Shown here piece after piece: positions 22,502 through 63,571 of a DNA stretch of 64,000 nt (positions are counted from its first letter, which is position 1; the number at the start of each line of letters is the position of its first letter). The stretch covers positions 42,364-106,363 of the forward strand of contig JAQWLT010000026.1 in NCBI GenBank assembly GCA_029247205.1. The letters run 5' to 3'. The notes under the pieces are model-generated. The model ran no database searches. It was not told the DNA's origin and worked only from the letters and a program-made list of their open reading frames with translations. The stretch comes from Phycisphaerales bacterium (GTDB taxonomy: Bacteria > Planctomycetota > Phycisphaerae > Phycisphaerales > SM1A02). The translations under genes and the position numbers were made by a program.

Positions 22502-22572
22502 TGGGGATTGGTGTAACGGTAGCACGACTGACTCTGAATCAGTTAGTCCAAGTTCGAATCTTGGATCCCCAG
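22502..22572 (+). tRNA. tRNA-Gln (anticodon CUG)
   Basis: The 7-bp acceptor stem TGGGGAT/ATCCCCA closes the 71-nt molecule, with discriminator G. The anticodon stem ACTGA/TCAGT encloses loop CTCTGAA, giving anticodon CUG for Gln CAG codons. The T arm is CCAAG-TTCGAAT-CTTGG. CCA is not encoded and must be added. It lies 57 bp from the divergent purE start. Confidence 0.95.
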
Positions 22573-54745: not shown

Positions 54746-55381
54746 TCAACAACGAGCCGTCAGTTTGGCCTCGATCTCAGCAGTGGCCCTGGCATACACC
54801 GAATCGGCGTCGCCCGTTGCATCAATCAAGAGAACATGCTCAGGGTCGGCAGCAAATAGTGCGTGATAGCCATCCCGCACCCGCCTATGGAATTCGGCGC
54901 CCTTTTGCTCCATGCGATCAAGTAGTGGATTGAGACGCTTCGCCGCCGTCACTTCGTCGACATCGAATATCACCGTCAAATCTGGCATCTGATGATTCGT
55001 GGCAACGGCGGCAACCTCGAAGATTTCTTCCATAGGCAAACCACCAGCCGTACCTTGATACGCACAAGTCGATGCTACAAACCGATCGGCCAAAACCAAA
55101 TCACCCCGGCTGATCGCTGGTCCAATCTGCTGCTCTACAAGTTGTGCCCGACTCGCCATATACAGCAGCATCTCACAGCGAATGGTCATGTCGGTGTTCT
55201 CAGGATCAAGCAGAACCTTGCGGATCTGCTCCCCCACCGATGTTCCTCCCGGCTCGCGGACCTCAATCACCTCAAGTCCAGCGGCACTGGCATCGGTGGC
55301 AAAGCGGGCCAACTGGGTTGACTTGCCTGAGCCGTCCGGGCCCTCAAAGACGATGAATTTGCCGCGAAGCCACTGGTGCAT
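54746..55381 (-). CDS. tmk: Thymidylate kinase
   Basis: This enzyme phosphorylates dTMP to dTDP. P-loop FEGPDGSGKSTQ, EVREPGGTSVGEQIR, VLADRFVASTCAYQGTAGGL (the DRY/F motif) and DLTVIFDVD are diagnostic. It has 211 residues from ATG 55381; the longer ORF to 55531 covers the shared promoter region with the divergent gene. TTGACC-17-GACACT ends 6 nt before the ATG. Confidence 0.95.
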   Translation of the reverse strand: MHQWLRGKFIVFEGPDGSGKSTQLARFATDASAAGLEVIEVREPGGTSVGEQIRKVLLDPENTDMTIRCEMLLYMASRAQLVEQQIGPAISRGDLVLADRFVASTCAYQGTAGGLPMEEIFEVAAVATNHQMPDLTVIFDVDEVTAAKRLNPLLDRMEQKGAEFHRRVRDGYHALFAADPEHVLLIDATGDADSVYARATAEIEAKLTARC

Positions 55382-55387
55382 TGGTGA

Positions 55388-55416
55388 AGTGTCGGCTGTA
55401 GAGGCCCACGGGTCAA
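55388..55416 (-). promoter_or_regulatory. tmk promoter candidate placed for a leaderless start
   Basis: On the minus strand TTGACC (-35), exactly 17 bp and GACACT (-10) end 6 nt before the tmk ATG. No SD lies between them. Confidence 0.5.
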
Positions 55417-55445
55417 CAGGTGGCGACCGAAGTAGTATCGAACAT

Positions 55446-55901
55446 ATGCGGGTCCTACTAAGAGACATCGACCGGAAGCCCCTCGGCCAGATCGAACTCG
55501 CCTCAGGTGCGACACCTGCCTGTGTGAGCACTGAGAAGGGCCGTGAGGTTTATCTCAACTGGGAAGGAGCTCATGATGACGAAGGGCATCTCCGTCGGTG
55601 CCTCTCCTGTGGCTGCGACACGCTTTATCGCCATCGCCGTATGCCTCAAGTCACTGGCTTTGTCATTGTGCTGGCACTCGCCCTGGGCCTGGGTGGCATC
55701 CTTGGCCTCGCAACCGGCCTGCCATTCCTCATTGCCATGGTCCTCGTGCTACTGCTTGATGTGGCGATTCTGGTGCTCTCACGAGAGACGCTGGAGTGCT
55801 ACCGATGTCGATCGTCCTACCGCAATCTAGACATCGCTCAGTATCACCAGCGATGGAATGGCGACACCGCCAGGAGAATCACTTCCGGCGACGTCTCTTA
55901 A
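55446..55901 (+). CDS. Small membrane protein with split zinc ribbon
   Basis: This 151-residue protein has two Cys pairs (CLSCGC and CYRCRSS) on either side of two TM helices (VTGFVIVLALALGLGGILGLA and PFLIAMVLVLLLDVAILVLS). The pairs could form one zinc ribbon on the same side of the membrane. It is not otherwise recognised. ATG 55446 (MRVLLRDID) is 7 nt after TAGTAT; the ORF to 55182 is in tmk. Its 3' end overlaps the convergent ubiB by 23 bp. Confidence 0.75.
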   Translation: MRVLLRDIDRKPLGQIELASGATPACVSTEKGREVYLNWEGAHDDEGHLRRCLSCGCDTLYRHRRMPQVTGFVIVLALALGLGGILGLATGLPFLIAMVLVLLLDVAILVLSRETLECYRCRSSYRNLDIAQYHQRWNGDTARRITSGDVS

Positions 55902-57576
55902 ACTTAGACCACAAACTCTCGATCACAATCATCAAGGCCAGCGAGAATGAGACGAGGAAGGACACAAATCCAATCCAGCCAAGCAGCGAATGATCGTTTG
56001 ATTGACTTGATGACGCCAGCACGAGAATCGATGACGCCATGATCATCGCAGCTACGAGCACCGCGTATGCCAATTGACGACTTGAGTGGTGAAGCGTACG
56101 CTCAAATGACTCAACGCCATTCACATCAAGTGCAAGGCGGAACTTATTGCTGCTCACCCGTTCGAGGATTGTGTTGAGTCCGCCTGGCAGTCGGTCGGCA
56201 AGTGTGACCCACTTTCCGACATTGCGAGTCAGTCGACCCTTGATGACCCGCCATGAATACTGCTGTTTGACCAATCGCTCCACATGAGGACGGGCGAATT
56301 GCACGAGGTCAAATTCTGGATCAAGCTCCTCGGCCACACCTTCAATGGTGGTTAATGCCTTGATCATCAGAACAATCTCAGCCGGACACTGCAACTTATG
56401 CTTTCTCAGGCCCTCAGTAAACGCCCGTAGCATGGCGCCCATATCGACTTTCTCAAATGAGATGCCCGTGAATTGGTCAAGAAAATCCTGTAAGTCACGC
56501 CGGAGCTCACGACGGTTGACCTGGTCTTCTTCAACCTGTCCGAGCCCGAGAAATGCGGGATACAGTTTGTCAATGTCCCCAGATGCAACCCCATAAATGA
56601 GATTCGCAAGATCAGTCACAGTCTCTGGATCAACACGCCCCGCCATTCCGCAGTCGATGAAGCAAATTCGACCATCTTCCATGAGGAAGAGGTTTCCGGG
56701 GTGTGGGTCTGCATGGAAGAAACCAACGTCAAGTACTTGCCGAAGCACAGTAAAGGCGCCGTTGCGAACAAGCGATTCACGCTGGTCAACACTTAGGTTG
56801 GCCTGTTTCCACTTCGAAAGTTGTACACCCTTAATCTCTTCGAGACCAAGCACGCGTTTGCGCGTAACACTCCAGTACACCTCAGGGAACCAAGCCTGCT
56901 CACCCTCTTCGAGGTTGTTCCGAAACAGATCGGTGTTTCGACCTTCATGTACAAAGTCAAGTTCATACTCAATAGCCTTTGAGAACTCTTCAACAACACT
57001 GACAGGGTCAAACGGAAGATCCCGTGTGTGCCGTGAAAGCCATTCTGCTACGGCTTCTAGAATTTCAATGTCAGCTGCAACAAGTCGATCAATCTTCGGC
57101 CGCAGAATCTTCAACACAATCGGACGGCTTCCTTCACGCAGGACCGCCCGGTGAGCCTGTGCCATGGATGCTGCAGCCATCGGCTCTTCATCTATGGATT
57201 CAAAGATTTCATCGAGATCGCCAAGATCTTCGGTCAATTGTGCTTTGATTTCTGGCCATGGAACAGATGGCACATCGTCCTGCAACTTCTGCAATTCTTC
57301 GATGTACTCAGGCGAGAGAATGTCCGGTCGCGTGCTGAGAATCTGCCCGAGTTTGATAAAGGTTGGCCCGAGTTCTTCAAGCGCCATTCGCAATCTTGCG
57401 GGGCGACTCTCAGTGTGTACGGTAGCGGCAGGTTTACGAGAAAACACTCGCTGGCCACGCTCGAGCAATAGGTCCAGTTTGGCATCCTCGAAGAACTCGC
57501 GGAAGCCGAACTTGACCAAGATCCCAAGCATCTCACGGTACCGATTCGCGTGTCGAATCAATTGCAACATAGACAT
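55879..57576 (-). CDS. ubiB: UbiB/ABC1 family atypical kinase
   Basis: This membrane-anchored atypical protein kinase-like ATPase supports quinone lipid biosynthesis. The KxGQ motif is LGPTFIKLGQILSTRPD and the Ala-rich loop is AAASMAQAHRAVL, with VLKILRP, FFHADPHPGNLFLMEDGRICFIDCGMAGR (catalytic HxDxHPGN and DFG-like). Two C-terminal TM helices (YAVLVAAMIMASSILVL and LGWIGFVSFLVSFSLALMIV). It has 565 residues. TACCAT ends 7 nt before the ATG. No other ubi or men gene is nearby. Confidence 0.93.
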   Translation of the reverse strand: MSMLQLIRHANRYREMLGILVKFGFREFFEDAKLDLLLERGQRVFSRKPAATVHTESRPARLRMALEELGPTFIKLGQILSTRPDILSPEYIEELQKLQDDVPSVPWPEIKAQLTEDLGDLDEIFESIDEEPMAAASMAQAHRAVLREGSRPIVLKILRPKIDRLVAADIEILEAVAEWLSRHTRDLPFDPVSVVEEFSKAIEYELDFVHEGRNTDLFRNNLEEGEQAWFPEVYWSVTRKRVLGLEEIKGVQLSKWKQANLSVDQRESLVRNGAFTVLRQVLDVGFFHADPHPGNLFLMEDGRICFIDCGMAGRVDPETVTDLANLIYGVASGDIDKLYPAFLGLGQVEEDQVNRRELRRDLQDFLDQFTGISFEKVDMGAMLRAFTEGLRKHKLQCPAEIVLMIKALTTIEGVAEELDPEFDLVQFARPHVERLVKQQYSWRVIKGRLTRNVGKWVTLADRLPGGLNTILERVSSNKFRLALDVNGVESFERTLHHSSRQLAYAVLVAAMIMASSILVLASSSQSNDHSLLGWIGFVSFLVSFSLALMIVIESLWSKFKRRRRK

Positions 57577-57623
57577 GGTGGGAATGGTACCGCGTTGTGG
57601 CTTCGATTCCGGGCAGTGCGAGC

Positions 57624-58994
57624 TCAGCCCAACTTTGGCCTGCGTACACCACCGCCGGGCTTCTGGTCAGGCCCGATTGGCCGAGATGCTCGATTGCGCC
57701 GGCCAGGACCTGGCCGCTTACGGGTTTCGTGCGGCATTCCCTCTTCGCGTGGGGCAGGCTTGGTCTTTTTAGGGGATGTTTTTGCTTTAAATCCAGGCAC
57801 AGTCTCAGGGTCAACCCGTACACCCGCTGCGGGCGCCATCTTGTACCAAGTGTCCAAATCACGCTCACCAATCAACGTCCAAGCGTGGCCGCTCTTTCGA
57901 GTGCCGTGCGCCGCTCTACCGGCACGATGAACGAGATCCTCTGCAGTGTTGGGCAGGTCATAGTTGATGACCGTCGCAATACCGTCAATGTGCAAGCCGC
58001 GACTTCCCACATCGGTCGCCACTAATACATCAATTTCGCCACTACTAAAGGCTTCGAGCGCCCGACGCCGCTGAGCCTGTGATCGATCCGCATGGAGTTG
58101 CCCAGTCTTTAAATCATGCCTCGAGAGTGCTGCCGCAACCCAACCTGTCCGCCGCCGCGTTCGACAAAAAATCAGCATCCGGCCGCCGCCTGCATGCTTA
58201 TGAAGATGAATAAGTAAATCAACACGATCACGAGGATGAACCAACACTACATGTTGGGTCACATGCTCAACCGCCACGGTGTGCGGGTGGGTTTCGATTC
58301 TCACTGCGCCTCGCAGGTGTTGGTCAGCCAATTGCAGTACGTCGCGGGGCATCGTGGCGCTGAAAAGAAGCATCTGCCGGCGAGACGAGATTCTCTCGAG
58401 AATACGTCTGACCTGCGGGGCAAAGCCCATATCGAACATTCGATCGGCTTCGTCAATCACCAACATCTGCACCGCTTCACCGTCGATATCACCTTCATCG
58501 ATCAACTCAAGAAGCCGGCCAGGGGTCGCAACCAAAAGGTCAACACCCTTTGAGAGGACCTCCCGGATAGGGCTGATCGCAACGCTTCCAACAGCCACAC
58601 CAACCCTCAATACAGATCCTCGCAATAGACCGTCGGCCACGCGACCTGTTTGATCAGCCAACTCCCGGGTCGGACAGAGCACGACTGCACGAAGCCGACG
58701 CCGAGAAGACATTCGAGTGCCTTTGGCGGGCCGATCATCCAGAATTCGCTGAAGAACCGGCACCAAGAACGCAAGCGTCTTACCACTACCCGTCTCAGCA
58801 AGCGAAATCACATCTCGACCTGCGAGTACCTCAGGAATAACCTGCGACTGCACCGAGCGAGGGCGATTGATGCCCTGCCTCGACAATGTCTCAGTCAAGA
58901 CTGAGCCGATACCGATCGTGACGAACGAGTCGCCCAGCGGCAATTTTGCAGTTTTTCCAGAAGAAGATTGATCACGTGACTGATTGGAGGGCAT
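57624..58994 (-). CDS. DEAD-box RNA helicase
   Basis: This is a RhlE/DeaD-like ATP-dependent RNA helicase of about 456 residues. Motifs in order: Q motif INRPRSVQSQVIPEVLAG, I AETGSGKT, Ia PTRELADQ, Ib TPGRL, II VIDEADRMFDMGF, III SATMP, IV LIFCRTRRRT, V VATDVGSRGLHI, VI HRAGRAAHG. The last residue of motif VI is His instead of the usual Arg. A basic Pro/Gly-rich tail ends it (APREEGMPHETRKRPGPGRRNRASRP). ATG 58994 is preferred; a TTG at 59000 lies just upstream. Confidence 0.93.
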   Translation of the reverse strand: MPSNQSRDQSSSGKTAKLPLGDSFVTIGIGSVLTETLSRQGINRPRSVQSQVIPEVLAGRDVISLAETGSGKTLAFLVPVLQRILDDRPAKGTRMSSRRRLRAVVLCPTRELADQTGRVADGLLRGSVLRVGVAVGSVAISPIREVLSKGVDLLVATPGRLLELIDEGDIDGEAVQMLVIDEADRMFDMGFAPQVRRILERISSRRQMLLFSATMPRDVLQLADQHLRGAVRIETHPHTVAVEHVTQHVVLVHPRDRVDLLIHLHKHAGGGRMLIFCRTRRRTGWVAAALSRHDLKTGQLHADRSQAQRRRALEAFSSGEIDVLVATDVGSRGLHIDGIATVINYDLPNTAEDLVHRAGRAAHGTRKSGHAWTLIGERDLDTWYKMAPAAGVRVDPETVPGFKAKTSPKKTKPAPREEGMPHETRKRPGPGRRNRASRPIGPDQKPGGGVRRPKLG

Positions 58995-59045
58995 ACTCAA
59001 GTACTCATGCTAGGACATCCAGAAAAACTCGAACGACGCAGTGCC

Positions 59046-59290
59046 TATTCTAGGTGTGCGGCGTCACGGCGCCACCCCTTGGGGGCCCGCACCCTGAATG
59101 CCCAAGCCCTTTCGATGCCATCCACCGGCCATGTTCTGTGCCGCAGTCTCATGTTTGTCATGAATTACTGCACAGCTACCTGTTGCCGCGTCTGGAACGC
59201 GATTTCGGCGGGGCTCGCCCGAGGAGACTAAGGACTCGATTCCAAGGAACCCACCAGCGACGCCCCGCCACACAGCGGGGCGTTTGTTAT
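59046..59290 (+). ncRNA. Candidate structured leader RNA or riboswitch-like attenuator
   Basis: A TATTCT hexamer at 59046-59051 could start an RNA near 59058. The next 230 nt can fold into several arms: GTGCGG/CCGCAC (59056-59092) with an inner CCCC-TT-GGGG; CTGT...GCAGT-CATG/CATG-ACTGC-ACAG (59136-59175); and GGCGGGGC (59207-59214), which can pair with GCCCCGCC (59262-59269), the 5' arm of the terminator. This gives mutually exclusive antiterminator and terminator forms. I match it to no known riboswitch class by eye. It could instead be an independent small RNA. Confidence 0.5.
59260..59283 (+). terminator. Intrinsic terminator 41 bp before the collagen-like gene
   Basis: ACGCCCCGC and GCGGGGCGT form a 9-bp GC-rich stem with loop CACACA, then TTGTTATTTC. 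It lies upstream of an SD and ORF on the same strand, so it must be an attenuator or end a small RNA. Confidence 0.75.
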
Positions 59291-59324
59291 TTCATCCCCT
59301 CTTACGTATTCAGGAGATCTCACT

Positions 59325-60035
59325 ATGTCCCCCTCCCCCGGAAGTCCCGGAACCCCAGGCAGTCCTGGAAACCCCGGCTACGAACCTCTCATGCCTAACA
59401 GGCGAGGCGATGGCTTTGGACTCGCCTCCATGCTCTCCACCCGATCGATCGCCACCATTCGACGGGCCAGCGGAGTGCATGGCACTGTAGAGGGGCTCGA
59501 CCTACAAAGCATCGTTCACAGCATTGAGCAAATCCCCTCCCGCTCATGGGTCGCAGATGATCTGACGGTGTTGATTGGGCAACCGTCACTTCGCTTTCGC
59601 GCCACAAACCCGGCGTGGCTCGTCCGAATCGATGGCCCCGTTGAATCGCGTGATGGTCGTGCCATACGGGCGGCCATCATGCGAGGTGATGACCCGCTGG
59701 CCTTTGAACTTCGCGCAGACCTCTATCTGGCTGCTACACGAACTGGCGTTTCGTTCTCGACCAACGATGACAACATCGTGCTCGAAATAGCCGCCACACT
59801 TCTGCAGCATCACGCTGCAGCAGCGGTACAACGTGCTGTGGCTGATGTGCACAAACCCGAGCTAGACACCGTCGCTGCCCTGCTTGGCCCATCCGGACTG
59901 GCGCTTCGTGGACTCGAGACTGACGTCTTCCCGAGCTTCCTCGATATCGGCGTCTCGGACGCTGAACACGAAGCTCCACCAGCCATACGATCCGTCGTGC
60001 TCGATCGCGTCACTGGAGCATGGCACACCGACTGA
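59325..60035 (+). CDS. Protein of unknown function with collagen-like N-terminus
   Basis: This 236-residue protein is not recognised. It begins with Gly/Pro repeats of collagen type (SPGSPGTPGSPGNPGYEP), followed by a region of about 200 residues with beta and helix patterns (LTVLIGQPSLRFRATNPAWLVRIDG; VLEIAATLLQHHAAAAVQRA). No signal peptide or TM segment is seen. AGGAG lies 8 nt upstream of ATG 59325. The gene sits behind a structured leader with a terminator and is followed by its own terminator. Confidence 0.7.
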   Translation: MSPSPGSPGTPGSPGNPGYEPLMPNRRGDGFGLASMLSTRSIATIRRASGVHGTVEGLDLQSIVHSIEQIPSRSWVADDLTVLIGQPSLRFRATNPAWLVRIDGPVESRDGRAIRAAIMRGDDPLAFELRADLYLAATRTGVSFSTNDDNIVLEIAATLLQHHAAAAVQRAVADVHKPELDTVAALLGPSGLALRGLETDVFPSFLDIGVSDAEHEAPPAIRSVVLDRVTGAWHTD

Positions 60036-60087
60036 TCAAACATCTACTCTCCTGTGTGCGTCTCAACTCATCGAGTCGCACCTCGAA

Positions 60088-60120
60088 CACCCCCAAAGCG
60101 GACCGCCCGCATTGGGGGTG
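60088..60120 (+). terminator. Intrinsic terminator after the collagen-like gene
   Basis: CACCCCCAA and TTGGGGGTG form a perfect 9-bp stem around a 15-nt GC-rich loop, followed by CTTTCGT. Confidence 0.75.
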
Positions 60121-60151
60121 CTTTCGTGTCAGGGGAAGGCAAGCGGGTCGT

Positions 60152-60159
60152 GGTATGTT
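60152..60159 (+). promoter_or_regulatory. Extended -10 element for the atoE-like gene
   Basis: TG-G-TATGTT ends 6 nt before ATG 60166; a start 7 nt downstream would fall on the ATG itself. No -35 or SD is clear. Confidence 0.4.
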
Positions 60160-60165
60160 GATGGC

Positions 60166-61554
60166 ATGATTCGACGCACCGGAGCGGTCGTGACCGCTGT
60201 CTTTCGACGCATCGTTCCCGACCCACTTGTCATCGCTGTTGTGCTGACGGTCGGGGTGTTCGTGGCCGCCTTGTGGGTGGGCCGATATCCCGATCATGTT
60301 GACACCACCCTGGAACGAGCGGGATGGTTACTCGATGCGTGGAGTAGTAGTGACGGTCTCTGGAAACTGCTTGCCTTCGCAATGCAGATGAGTCTCATTC
60401 TGCTGGGTGGACACGTACTCGCTGAAGCCCCGCCCGTTCGGCGAGCACTCGGCAAGCTTGCCAATATCCCACGTACTGCAGCAGGCGCAGCGATATTAAT
60501 CGGCATTGTTGCCATGCTGCTTGGGATTGTGAACTGGGGTTTAGGGCTCATCGGAGGCGCCGTCATTGCCCGTGAAACGGGCCGCTCACTCTCGCGGCGA
60601 GGTGTAACGGCGCACTACCCACTACTCGCAGCAGCTGGATATACCGGAATGCTTGTATGGCATGGTGGTCTCTCTGGTTCGGCTCCACTATCAATGACGA
60701 CGCCTGCAGGCACTGCCAAGGTGCTGCCAACTTCACTTGCAGGCGCCGAGGTGACCACTCCACTCAGCGAAACTGTGTTCTCGCTCGAGAATCTACTGAT
60801 TACCGGTGGACTGCTTCTGATCATTCCGGTCCTCCTTGGCCTGATGTCGCCTCAAAGCGTCGACTGTGAACCCATCGATCGATTCACCCCGGGTGAGCAG
60901 AATGCTCCCTGTGAGGCTCGGGGCCATGCAACACTGCCAGACTTGCTCAATCACACCAGGTGGATCACGGCAACGCTTGGTCTAGCACTTCTGTGCGCAG
61001 CAATCTCGACAACTGCCACAAGCGGCCTCGATCGGATTGGACTCAATACAGTCATCATGTATTTACTCGCAGTGGCACTTTTACTGCACCGCTCGCCAGA
61101 TGCATTCATGCACGCTGCGACACGCGCAGCAGCGGGATGCGCCGGCATCATCGTTCAATTCCCACTCTACGCTGGGATCATGGGAATCATGGTTGCCGCC
61201 GGGCTCGTCGAACTCTTGACAGGTGCCATGCTGGAACTGGCTGGACCACAAACGTTGGAGTTCTGGACCATGGTCTCTGCAGGCATCGTCAATATTCTCG
61301 TCCCGAGTGGTGGCGGACAGTGGGCTGTGCAAGGTCCAATTGCCATTGAAGCAGGACGGTCAGCGGGAATTGGCACTGGGTCAATGATATTAGCTGTTGC
61401 CTATGGCGATGAACTCACCAATATGCTGCAGCCATTTTGGGCATTACCGCTGCTCGCAGTAACCGGTGTACGGGCGCGGGACATCGTGGGCTACACCGCA
61501 ATCGTCATGCTTGCAGCAGGCGCATGGATGACACTTTGGTTGCTTGTCCTATGA
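60166..61554 (+). CDS. AtoE-type short-chain fatty acid transporter
   Basis: This is a 462-residue multi-pass permease of the TIGR00366/AtoE family, which imports acetoacetate, butyrate or similar acids. At least 10 TM helices are visible, for example PLVIAVVLTVGVFVAALWV, AAILIGIVAMLLGIVNWGLGLIGGAVIARE and VNILVPSGGGQWAVQGPIAIEAG, the last being a conserved segment of the family. YHYPLL- and WHGGLSGSAPL-like loops also fit. It overlaps the crotonase gene by ATGA, so uptake and acyl-CoA handling are linked. Acs upstream at 25 kb could activate the acids. Confidence 0.9.
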   Translation: MIRRTGAVVTAVFRRIVPDPLVIAVVLTVGVFVAALWVGRYPDHVDTTLERAGWLLDAWSSSDGLWKLLAFAMQMSLILLGGHVLAEAPPVRRALGKLANIPRTAAGAAILIGIVAMLLGIVNWGLGLIGGAVIARETGRSLSRRGVTAHYPLLAAAGYTGMLVWHGGLSGSAPLSMTTPAGTAKVLPTSLAGAEVTTPLSETVFSLENLLITGGLLLIIPVLLGLMSPQSVDCEPIDRFTPGEQNAPCEARGHATLPDLLNHTRWITATLGLALLCAAISTTATSGLDRIGLNTVIMYLLAVALLLHRSPDAFMHAATRAAAGCAGIIVQFPLYAGIMGIMVAAGLVELLTGAMLELAGPQTLEFWTMVSAGIVNILVPSGGGQWAVQGPIAIEAGRSAGIGTGSMILAVAYGDELTNMLQPFWALPLLAVTGVRARDIVGYTAIVMLAAGAWMTLWLLVL

Positions 61555-62243
61555 GTAAGCATGTACGAGTTTGCAGGGCTGCGGGCATCCACACCGTGAC
61601 ACTAGATGCTGCAGATCGCCGCAACGCGCTTACTGTACCGATGCTAGAAGCCATCGAAGTGGCTGCTTGTGCTGCAGCAAACGCATCGGTCTTGGTGATT
61701 GAAGGAGCGGGCAAGACGTTCTGCGCAGGCTTTGATGTGGAACTCATGCAAACTCATCCAGACGCAGTGGATGAACTCATTGCAGCACTCAGTATGACAT
61801 GCCGAGCGTTGCGTCGATGCCCAGCAACCGTGCTCGCCGACGTTCAGGGCGCTGCTGTTGCTGGCGGATGCGCGTTGGCTGTATCAGCGGACATCCTGCT
61901 CGCTCGAGAGGGCGCACGACTGGGATACCCAGTGCACGCCCTGGGCATCTCACCTGCCGTCACCATTCCAGTGCTTCTTCCATCGGCGGGCGGACGGGCT
62001 AGAAGTATGCTGATGAACGGACGGCTTGTAGAGGCGCAATCACTGCATGATGCTGGAGTGGTGCACCACCTACTTCCGATGGAAAATGATCGAACCCCAT
62101 TCGTCAATGAACTCGCGGCTCGCGGCCGCGATGCTTCGCATATCACCAAGGCTTGGCTCAATGAACTGGATGATGTACTGAACGATGATCGATTCGATGG
62201 CCCGGTTACTGGATCACGCGGACTTCGCTACGGTCAGTCCTGA
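61551..62243 (+). CDS. Crotonase (enoyl-CoA hydratase/isomerase) family protein lacking catalytic Glu residues
   Basis: This 230-residue crotonase-fold protein has the CoA-binding oxyanion segments IEGAGKTFCAGFDVELM and VQGAAVAGGCALAVSADILLA. The two Glu residues used by enoyl-CoA hydratase (in GGGCE and PE) are Ala and Val here (GGCALAVS and GYPVHALG). It is therefore unlikely to be a hydratase; isomerase, other crotonase chemistry or a binding role is possible. It is coupled to the AtoE-type gene by ATGA and overlaps the convergent ndh by 10 bp. Confidence 0.85.
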   Translation: MSKHVRVCRAAGIHTVTLDAADRRNALTVPMLEAIEVAACAAANASVLVIEGAGKTFCAGFDVELMQTHPDAVDELIAALSMTCRALRRCPATVLADVQGAAVAGGCALAVSADILLAREGARLGYPVHALGISPAVTIPVLLPSAGGRARSMLMNGRLVEAQSLHDAGVVHHLLPMENDRTPFVNELAARGRDASHITKAWLNELDDVLNDDRFDGPVTGSRGLRYGQS

Positions 62244-63571
62244 CTCGCTCGCTCGCCGGACTTGCTCCGAATCATGTCTCGGTGCGAGGCCGCATGCATG
62301 CCAAGTTGCACATAATCCTTGCGGCACACCGCATTGAGCATCCAGTCGACCAACACTCGTAGCCGACGGCCAAATCGCGGGGTCTTCATGAGATAGATCC
62401 CACGCCACATGAGCCATGCAAGAATGCCATGCACGCGAAGACCCTTGATCGCCGCCACACCTCGGTGACGCCCAAGCGGCACCAATATGCCTTGAAGTTC
62501 GACACCCCCAGGCTTGGTGGGTCGGCCCTGCTCAGTCGCCGCAATATTTGCTGCGAGTTGTGGCGCCTGCCGAATGGCGATTTGCGCCAGCGGAGGCATT
62601 GGCTTGCCATCGCGGCCAGGGACCGAAGCGCAATCACCCATGCCCCAAATATTCGGCGTTCCAGTCGCCCGGTAGTCTGATTCACACTGCATGCCGCCAA
62701 ATTTATTCAACGGAAGACCATTGAGGTTCTTTAGCATCGGGGAGGGGGCGATACCAGCGGTCCAAATGACCGTCGAACATGGAACGGTCTCGCCATTACT
62801 GTCAACGATGCGGTCCGCATGAACCTCCTTCACAGAGACGCCCGTATGAATATTGATCCCACGCTTTCGCAGTAACTTGGTCGCCCAGTTTGAGAGATGG
62901 TCTGGCAAAATCGCTAGCAATCTCTTGTTGAACTCATAGACGGAGAATTGAATATCTTCGTCTTTGATGTTGTGATATTGAGCCGACGCTTCGCGGACAA
63001 AGACTTCAAGTTCACCAAGCACTTCGATGCCTGTCACATTGCCGCCGACAACCACAAAATGTAAGAGGCGGCGACGTTCCTCAAGATCATCAATCGCATT
63101 TGCCAATTCCAAGAGTTCAACTGCCCGATCACGTATCGCCACGGCATCAGACATGTGTTTCATGAAGAAGGCGTGCTCACGAACTCCCGACACCACATCC
63201 TCTGGAAACATCCTCGTGACACTCCCGAGCGCGACGACGAGGTGGTCGTAACCGATCCATCTAGATTGTTCATCCCCAACAAGTTGGAAGTGCACACGCT
63301 GCGATTCTGGATCCATCCCAACCACTTCGGCCATCAGCAACTCTGCTTTGGGGGCAAATTCTCGAATGGGCACGGTGCAATGACGAGGTTCAATCGAACC
63401 ACATCCAGCTTCGATGAGCAATGGATAGAAAATGAAATAGTTATTCCGATCGATGACGACGACTTCGACATCAAGACCATACTTGCGGCGAGTCAGCTCC
63501 TTGGCGAGGTATGAGCCACCGAAGCCGCCGCCCAGAATGACAATTCGCTTTCGTTCACGCTGCTCAACCAT
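62234..63571 (-). CDS. ndh: Type II NADH dehydrogenase
   Basis: This is a single-subunit FAD NADH:quinone oxidoreductase without proton pumping. It shows FAD motif VILGGGFGGSYLAKEL, NYFIFYPLLIEAGCG, the second nucleotide site VVVGGNVTGIEVLGEL, STVIWTAGIAPSPML, NIWGMGDCASVPG and PLAQIAIRQAPQLAANI. It has 445 residues with a C-terminal membrane-attaching amphipathic part. AGGAAGGG lies 5 nt before ATG 63571. Its start lies within the 3' end of the upstream membrane protein gene (79-bp overlap). Confidence 0.95.
   Translation of the reverse strand: MVEQRERKRIVILGGGFGGSYLAKELTRRKYGLDVEVVVIDRNNYFIFYPLLIEAGCGSIEPRHCTVPIREFAPKAELLMAEVVGMDPESQRVHFQLVGDEQSRWIGYDHLVVALGSVTRMFPEDVVSGVREHAFFMKHMSDAVAIRDRAVELLELANAIDDLEERRRLLHFVVVGGNVTGIEVLGELEVFVREASAQYHNIKDEDIQFSVYEFNKRLLAILPDHLSNWATKLLRKRGINIHTGVSVKEVHADRIVDSNGETVPCSTVIWTAGIAPSPMLKNLNGLPLNKFGGMQCESDYRATGTPNIWGMGDCASVPGRDGKPMPPLAQIAIRQAPQLAANIAATEQGRPTKPGGVELQGILVPLGRHRGVAAIKGLRVHGILAWLMWRGIYLMKTPRFGRRLRVLVDWMLNAVCRKDYVQLGMHAASHRDMIRSKSGERASQD

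Follow-up and report, generated by a model that had tools for sequence, protein, structure and literature searches.

A Probable Ribosome-Mediated Transcription Attenuator Built on a Conserved Small Open Reading Frame in Planctomycetota

Overview of the Locus

The locus described here, located in a stretch of DNA of 64,000 nucleotides of marine planctomycete origin (the window), is probably a ribosome-mediated transcription attenuator, as judged from comparative sequence analysis: a conserved small open reading frame (ORF) carries in its final codons an arm able to pair with the 5' arm of an intrinsic terminator, and the gene that follows the terminator encodes a conserved protein (see Table 1). 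The preliminary description of this DNA had presented the locus as a riboswitch-like attenuator; of that reading the antiterminator/terminator switch stands, since conservation and covariation across 17 genera support it strongly, while the riboswitch-like structured leader does not, the region being a coding ORF. Since the leader region is coding, has no Rfam match and is not unusually stable, the sensor is most likely the translating ribosome. More tentatively, the locus may belong to a family of attenuators specific to planctomycetes, whose sensor would at the same time be a functional small protein of 58–75 aa; translation of this protein, perhaps via its Cys codons, would set the transcription of a lineage-specific protein of unknown function, antitermination being the default when no ribosome is present.

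Table 1: Coordinates of the features of the locus and of its neighbours, given as positions in the window.
Feature	Position	Strand	Remarks
Divergent DEAD-box helicase gene	57624..59000	-	Pfam DEAD and Helicase_C
Probable small-ORF promoter	58968..58997	+	TTGATC (58968-58973), 18 nt, CATACT (58992-58997); ends 9 nt 5' of ATG
Leader small ORF	59007..59231	+	74 aa, MLGHPEKLERRSAYSRCAASRRHPLGARTLNAQALSMPSTGHVLCRSLMFVMNYCTATCCRVWNAISAGLARGD; stop TAA 59229-59231
TATTCT	59046..59051	+	Codons 14-15 (Tyr-Ser) of the small ORF
Cys-Cys (59181-59186) and Trp (59193-59195) codons	59181..59195	+	Candidate stall codons just 5' of the antiterminator arm
Antiterminator 5' arm GGCGGGGC	59207-59214	+	Within the final small-ORF codons; complement of 59262-59269
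Candidate anti-antiterminator hairpin	59209..59221	+	CGGG-GCTCG-CCCG; 4-bp, in the terminator-state fold of the 3' end
Intrinsic terminator	59259..59284	+	GACGCCCCGCC-ACACA-GCGGGGCGTT; 10 pairs, loop 6
Terminator 5' arm core GCCCCGCC	59262-59269	+	
Controlled gene, 236-aa protein of unknown function	59325..60035	+	SD AGGAG 59312-59316
Short-chain fatty acid transporter (SCFA_trans), next gene	60166..61554	+	Pfam PF02667, E=2.2e-111

The Small ORF

The element was recognized in six genus relatives via DNA search and in a further genome, G137, via sequence-model search, giving eight carriers including the window. In the six genomes found by DNA search, the block 59163-59293 is 81–88% identical to that of the window, compared to 45–59% identity for the downstream proteins. 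Read as an ORF, the conserved block ends in GLARGD followed by TAA or TGA, the only codons seen at this stop in the genus. In all eight genomes the ATG, the frame, and the stop are kept (66–74 codons), the protein beginning with MLGHP or MFGHT from the ATG at 59007, and every gap in the DNA alignment of the small ORF within the genus is a multiple of three; moreover, pS (0.50) is higher than pN (0.37), with pS>pN in 27 of the 28 pairs. Purifying selection on the small ORF is weak in the genus of the window, where the codon signal of the last 25 codons alone is not significant (p=0.105), and clearer in another genus, g7, the largest group of leaders, whose orthologous ORFs of 74–75 aa display an in-frame pS about twice pN, with no such excess in the other frames. 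On this comparative evidence, what had been taken for a structured leader is a small ORF that codes for a protein; a shorter version of it, 23 codons from 59160, was replaced by the 74 codons from 59007, that ATG proving conserved. In one leader (L021) no ATG, GTG, or TTG is present near the conserved 3' part, so that its start must be a far-upstream ATG. Searches of the small proteins against Pfam and NCBIfam returned no family; the small protein may additionally have a function of its own.

The region upstream of the small ORF carries its probable promoter, as suggested by the sequence, and since this ends 9 nt before the ATG, the transcript would be almost leaderless. The pattern in the genus is approximately CTGGTC-N18-CATA[CG]T-N9-ATG, and mostly TTGACC-N16-CATAGT-N7-ATG in g7. 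Conservation of the window promoter is confounded by its overlap with the start of the divergent helicase gene, whose possible start codon (58994) is also complemented by the CAT; in g7 a UbiB-like kinase takes the place of the helicase as divergent neighbour. The TATTCT at 59046, taken in the preliminary description as a -10 element, is indeed present in the sequence; it is not the promoter, given that it lies in codons of the conserved ORF (His-Ser or Tyr-Ser in the relatives) and that six of the eight genus members have CATTCT at this place. An alternative assignment of ATTCTA as the -10 of the divergent helicase was likewise dropped, these letters being codons of the small ORF.

The Terminator and the Competing Antiterminator

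The terminator of the window, followed by a T-rich tail (TGTTATTTCA, 3' of 59284), had been recognized in the preliminary description, with a stem one pair shorter (9 instead of 10); the exact complementarity between 59207-59214 and 59262-59269 reported there was confirmed, as were the SD and the ATG downstream. The antiterminator arm lies 14 nt upstream of the small-ORF stop codon, and the terminator 27 nt downstream of it. Exact triples (antiterminator arm, terminator 5' arm, and 3' arm, then a T-rich tail) are rare: one occurs in the 64-kb window, compared to 0.075 per simulated window. Terminator-like sites alone are not above chance, with four in the window versus 5.6 expected.

The arrangement extends well beyond the genus. 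In 46 leaders from 17 genera (the window and 45 others) a terminator precedes a homologous target gene, and a common layout is shared by the 17 genera: the end of a small ORF (58–75 codons in length), an antiterminator arm about 40–50 nt 5' of the terminator, and then the terminator. The best complement of the terminator 5' arm is usually found at that distance, within the final codons of the small ORF, whose stop, hand-picked among candidates in the rarer genera, falls 25–40 nt 5' of the terminator and 2–15 nt 3' of the predicted antiterminator duplex. At 18 further loci no terminator was detected in a first scan, and a relaxed scan recovered one.

Pairing with the terminator arm is sharply localised along the leaders: the mean duplex energy peaks at about -14 to -15 kcal/mol in 28-nt windows starting 54–70 nt 5' of the terminator, compared to -5 to -8 kcal/mol elsewhere. 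Covariation of the two arms, which the preliminary description had proposed as a check, is apparent between genera, matched arms reaching -16.1 versus -13.7 (sd 0.65) for arms swapped between the 17 genera (permutation p=0.0005); it is weak in g7, where matched arms have no advantage (-12.3 versus -12.5). Examples of differing pairs are GGACAGGGTT/AACCCTGTCC in L043 and GACGGGGC/GCCCCGTC in L023; even in the same genus, G141 (L019) carries GGCGGAGC/GCTCCGCC where the window has GGCGGGGC/GCCCCGCC, both sides having changed. Taken singly, only 19 of the 46 leaders exceed their shuffles in complementarity at the 0.05 level.

These data bear on the simplest alternative, namely, that two neighbouring genes are involved, the terminator just ending the gene of the small protein and the complementarity arising from GC-rich repeats. 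The sequence is in fact GC-rich, and pairing is still fairly good (-13.7) when the two arms come from different genera; such an origin is nevertheless quite unlikely in view of the localised complementarity, the covarying arms, the fixed spacing to the terminator, and the uniqueness of the triple in the window. Furthermore, just 40 nt, containing no promoter-like match, separate the terminator from the ATG of the next gene at 59325.

A second alternative is a ligand-binding riboswitch or other metabolite-sensing RNA, in which an aptamer located in 59058-59250 would decide whether the antiterminator or the terminator forms. In its favour, both of these competing structures are genuine and have been conserved, and some bases after the stop (GGACTCGATTCCAAGGAAC) are strongly conserved in the genus; the would-be aptamer, however, is a translated ORF evolving by codon rules, and what is retained from one genus to another is limited to the arms, the ORF, and the spacing. 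In Rfam, neither the window leader nor its seven relatives found a match at the gathering score, and relaxed thresholds gave sub-threshold chance matches only, in keeping with the earlier statement that the leader matches no known class; the sole Rfam match in the window is a tRNA gene (22502-22572). The folding stability of the leader is not exceptional compared to shuffles (z=-1.64 when the terminator is included, z=-0.48 when it is left out), so that the three arms advanced in the preliminary description carry no evidential weight. On balance, a riboswitch is highly improbable. The candidate CGGG...CCCG hairpin fits, and is partly kept, within the genus of the window, as judged by inspection.

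The Target Gene and Its Neighbourhood

Homologs of the target protein occur in 66 of 400 genomes, belonging to 27 genera and almost all to one family. That the gene has no known function, as previously noted, agrees with the searches: no Pfam or NCBIfam family was found for the protein, its structure, predicted from seven sequences, is mostly of low confidence (mean pLDDT 60), and the low-confidence model found no fold match in the PDB (best E=0.53). The collagen-like N-terminus mentioned in the preliminary description is present in the window copy; it is peculiar to that copy, being absent from the others.

In several other genera (leaders L028, L032, L043, L027, and L044) a second short ORF, often ending in GGDGP or similar, is found between the terminator and the target gene; its overlap with the target start (ATGA) suggests translational coupling. 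In G137 the leader and the target gene are situated at the ends of two contigs, C67 (L107) and C8, probably because of an assembly break at the locus. A further terminator-like site (60104-60120) follows the target gene of the window, ahead of the gene for the fatty acid transporter.

The neighbourhood (window 54746-63571; L113-L115) recurs across genera, with a UbiB-like kinase and the target protein and, in several genera, a short-chain fatty acid transporter, an enoyl-CoA hydratase, and an NDH-2-like oxidoreductase; outside the window these gene names reflect sequence resemblance only.

Proposed Mechanism and Candidate Signals

The effect of a translating ribosome was explored by folding the RNA left free downstream of it, the reach of the ribosome being assumed to be 13 nt. 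In these predicted folds the antiterminator is formed in 16 of 16 leaders when the ribosome is far upstream and in 15 of 16 when it is absent; it is lost in 16 of 16 once about ten codons or fewer lie between the A site and the stop. The Trp codon (59193) is the last one in the window at which the A site is still fully permissive; the Cys-Cys pair lies just upstream. In a segment made up of the last 60 nt and the terminator, the terminator fold has a predicted energy of -34.2 kcal/mol, compared to -30.4 kcal/mol for the antiterminator fold as long as the 3' arm has yet to be transcribed, so that the choice between the two would be kinetic.

The sequence itself shows the ORF and both of the competing pairings, which are conserved, covary, and keep a fixed spacing; from this we infer the following steps for the ribosome. 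A nearly leaderless transcript would start just 5' of 59007 and encode the 74-aa small protein. A ribosome at the final ten or so codons would cover the antiterminator arm, allowing the terminator to form and leaving the gene at 59325 off; a ribosome held upstream, or absent, would let the antiterminator pair first, with read-through by RNA polymerase. The upstream hold might be due to slow or uncharged codons (Cys-Cys or Trp) or to an inhibited ribosome.

Which signal would hold the ribosome may be considered in two ways, both of them versions of the attenuator reading. A general sensor of slowed translation (e.g., by ribosome-targeting inhibitors), resembling BmrB and having no dedicated codon, is conceivable. 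In its favour, the leader ORF, at 58–75 aa, lacks a run of one codon, the antiterminator is the default fold in the predictions, and the logic matches that of BmrB of Bacillus subtilis (PMC4191407); no transporter or resistance gene, on the other hand, lies directly downstream.

The more specific version, a cysteine attenuator in which scarce charged tRNA-Cys would stall the ribosome on Cys codons 13–30 nt 5' of the antiterminator arm and so turn the gene on, appears doubtful. A Cys codon equivalent to those near 59181-59195 is found in most genera, an enrichment which is suggestive only: Cys makes up 5.4% of the last 40 residues, compared to 2.1% in the proteins of the window and 3.3% in other frames, and every member of 15 of the 17 genera has at least one Cys codon among codons 7–32 before the stop. 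The peak falls 18–27 nt 5' of the arm core, a distance at which a stalled ribosome would not block the arm. However, no one codon stands out clearly as regulatory: the Cys cluster (z=3.2) does not withstand correction for the scan over all residues and windows (3.25 being the 95% level of the null maxima), and cysteine was rejected as a proven signal on this ground; several g7 leaders carry Trp or Tyr instead, g24 has no Cys there, and the target gene has no known cysteine link.

Comparison with Known Systems

A literature search of partial coverage found no such leader-ORF attenuator described in Planctomycetota, of which the present leaders would constitute a family. The analysis brings to light a small protein that is conserved between genera and had no annotation, proposes a concrete way in which a conserved protein without known function would be switched, and illustrates how an apparent riboswitch can turn out to be a translated ORF.

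In the classical trp, his, and ilv attenuators the position of the ribosome on a leader ORF likewise picks the structure, and here a terminating ribosome would cover the antiterminator arm; their leader peptides are of about 15–30 codons, whereas the leader here has 58–75 codons, no run of regulatory codons and, as far as was found, no strong anti-antiterminator. The Cys-rich leader peptides preceding cys operons in Mycobacterium and other bacteria, in which the Cys codons form runs close to the stop and a terminator is not obvious, are similar in being short upstream ORFs carrying Cys codons; in the present leaders, by contrast, the Cys codons are scattered, the terminator is clear, and the target is not a known cys gene (PMC1262725).

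The closest known system in logic is the bmrB leader of bmrCD in Bacillus subtilis, a translated ORF of 53 aa placed before the target, with a terminator and a competing antiterminator, in which efficient translation favours termination and hindered translation favours read-through (PMC4191407). The sequences are unrelated and the phylum is different; the bmrB terminator is contained in the ORF and controls a multidrug ABC transporter (PMC4191407), whereas here the terminator lies 27 nt past the stop; finally, loss of translation lowers expression in bmrB (PMC4191407), while in the present leaders folding predicts that the antiterminator would form even without a ribosome.
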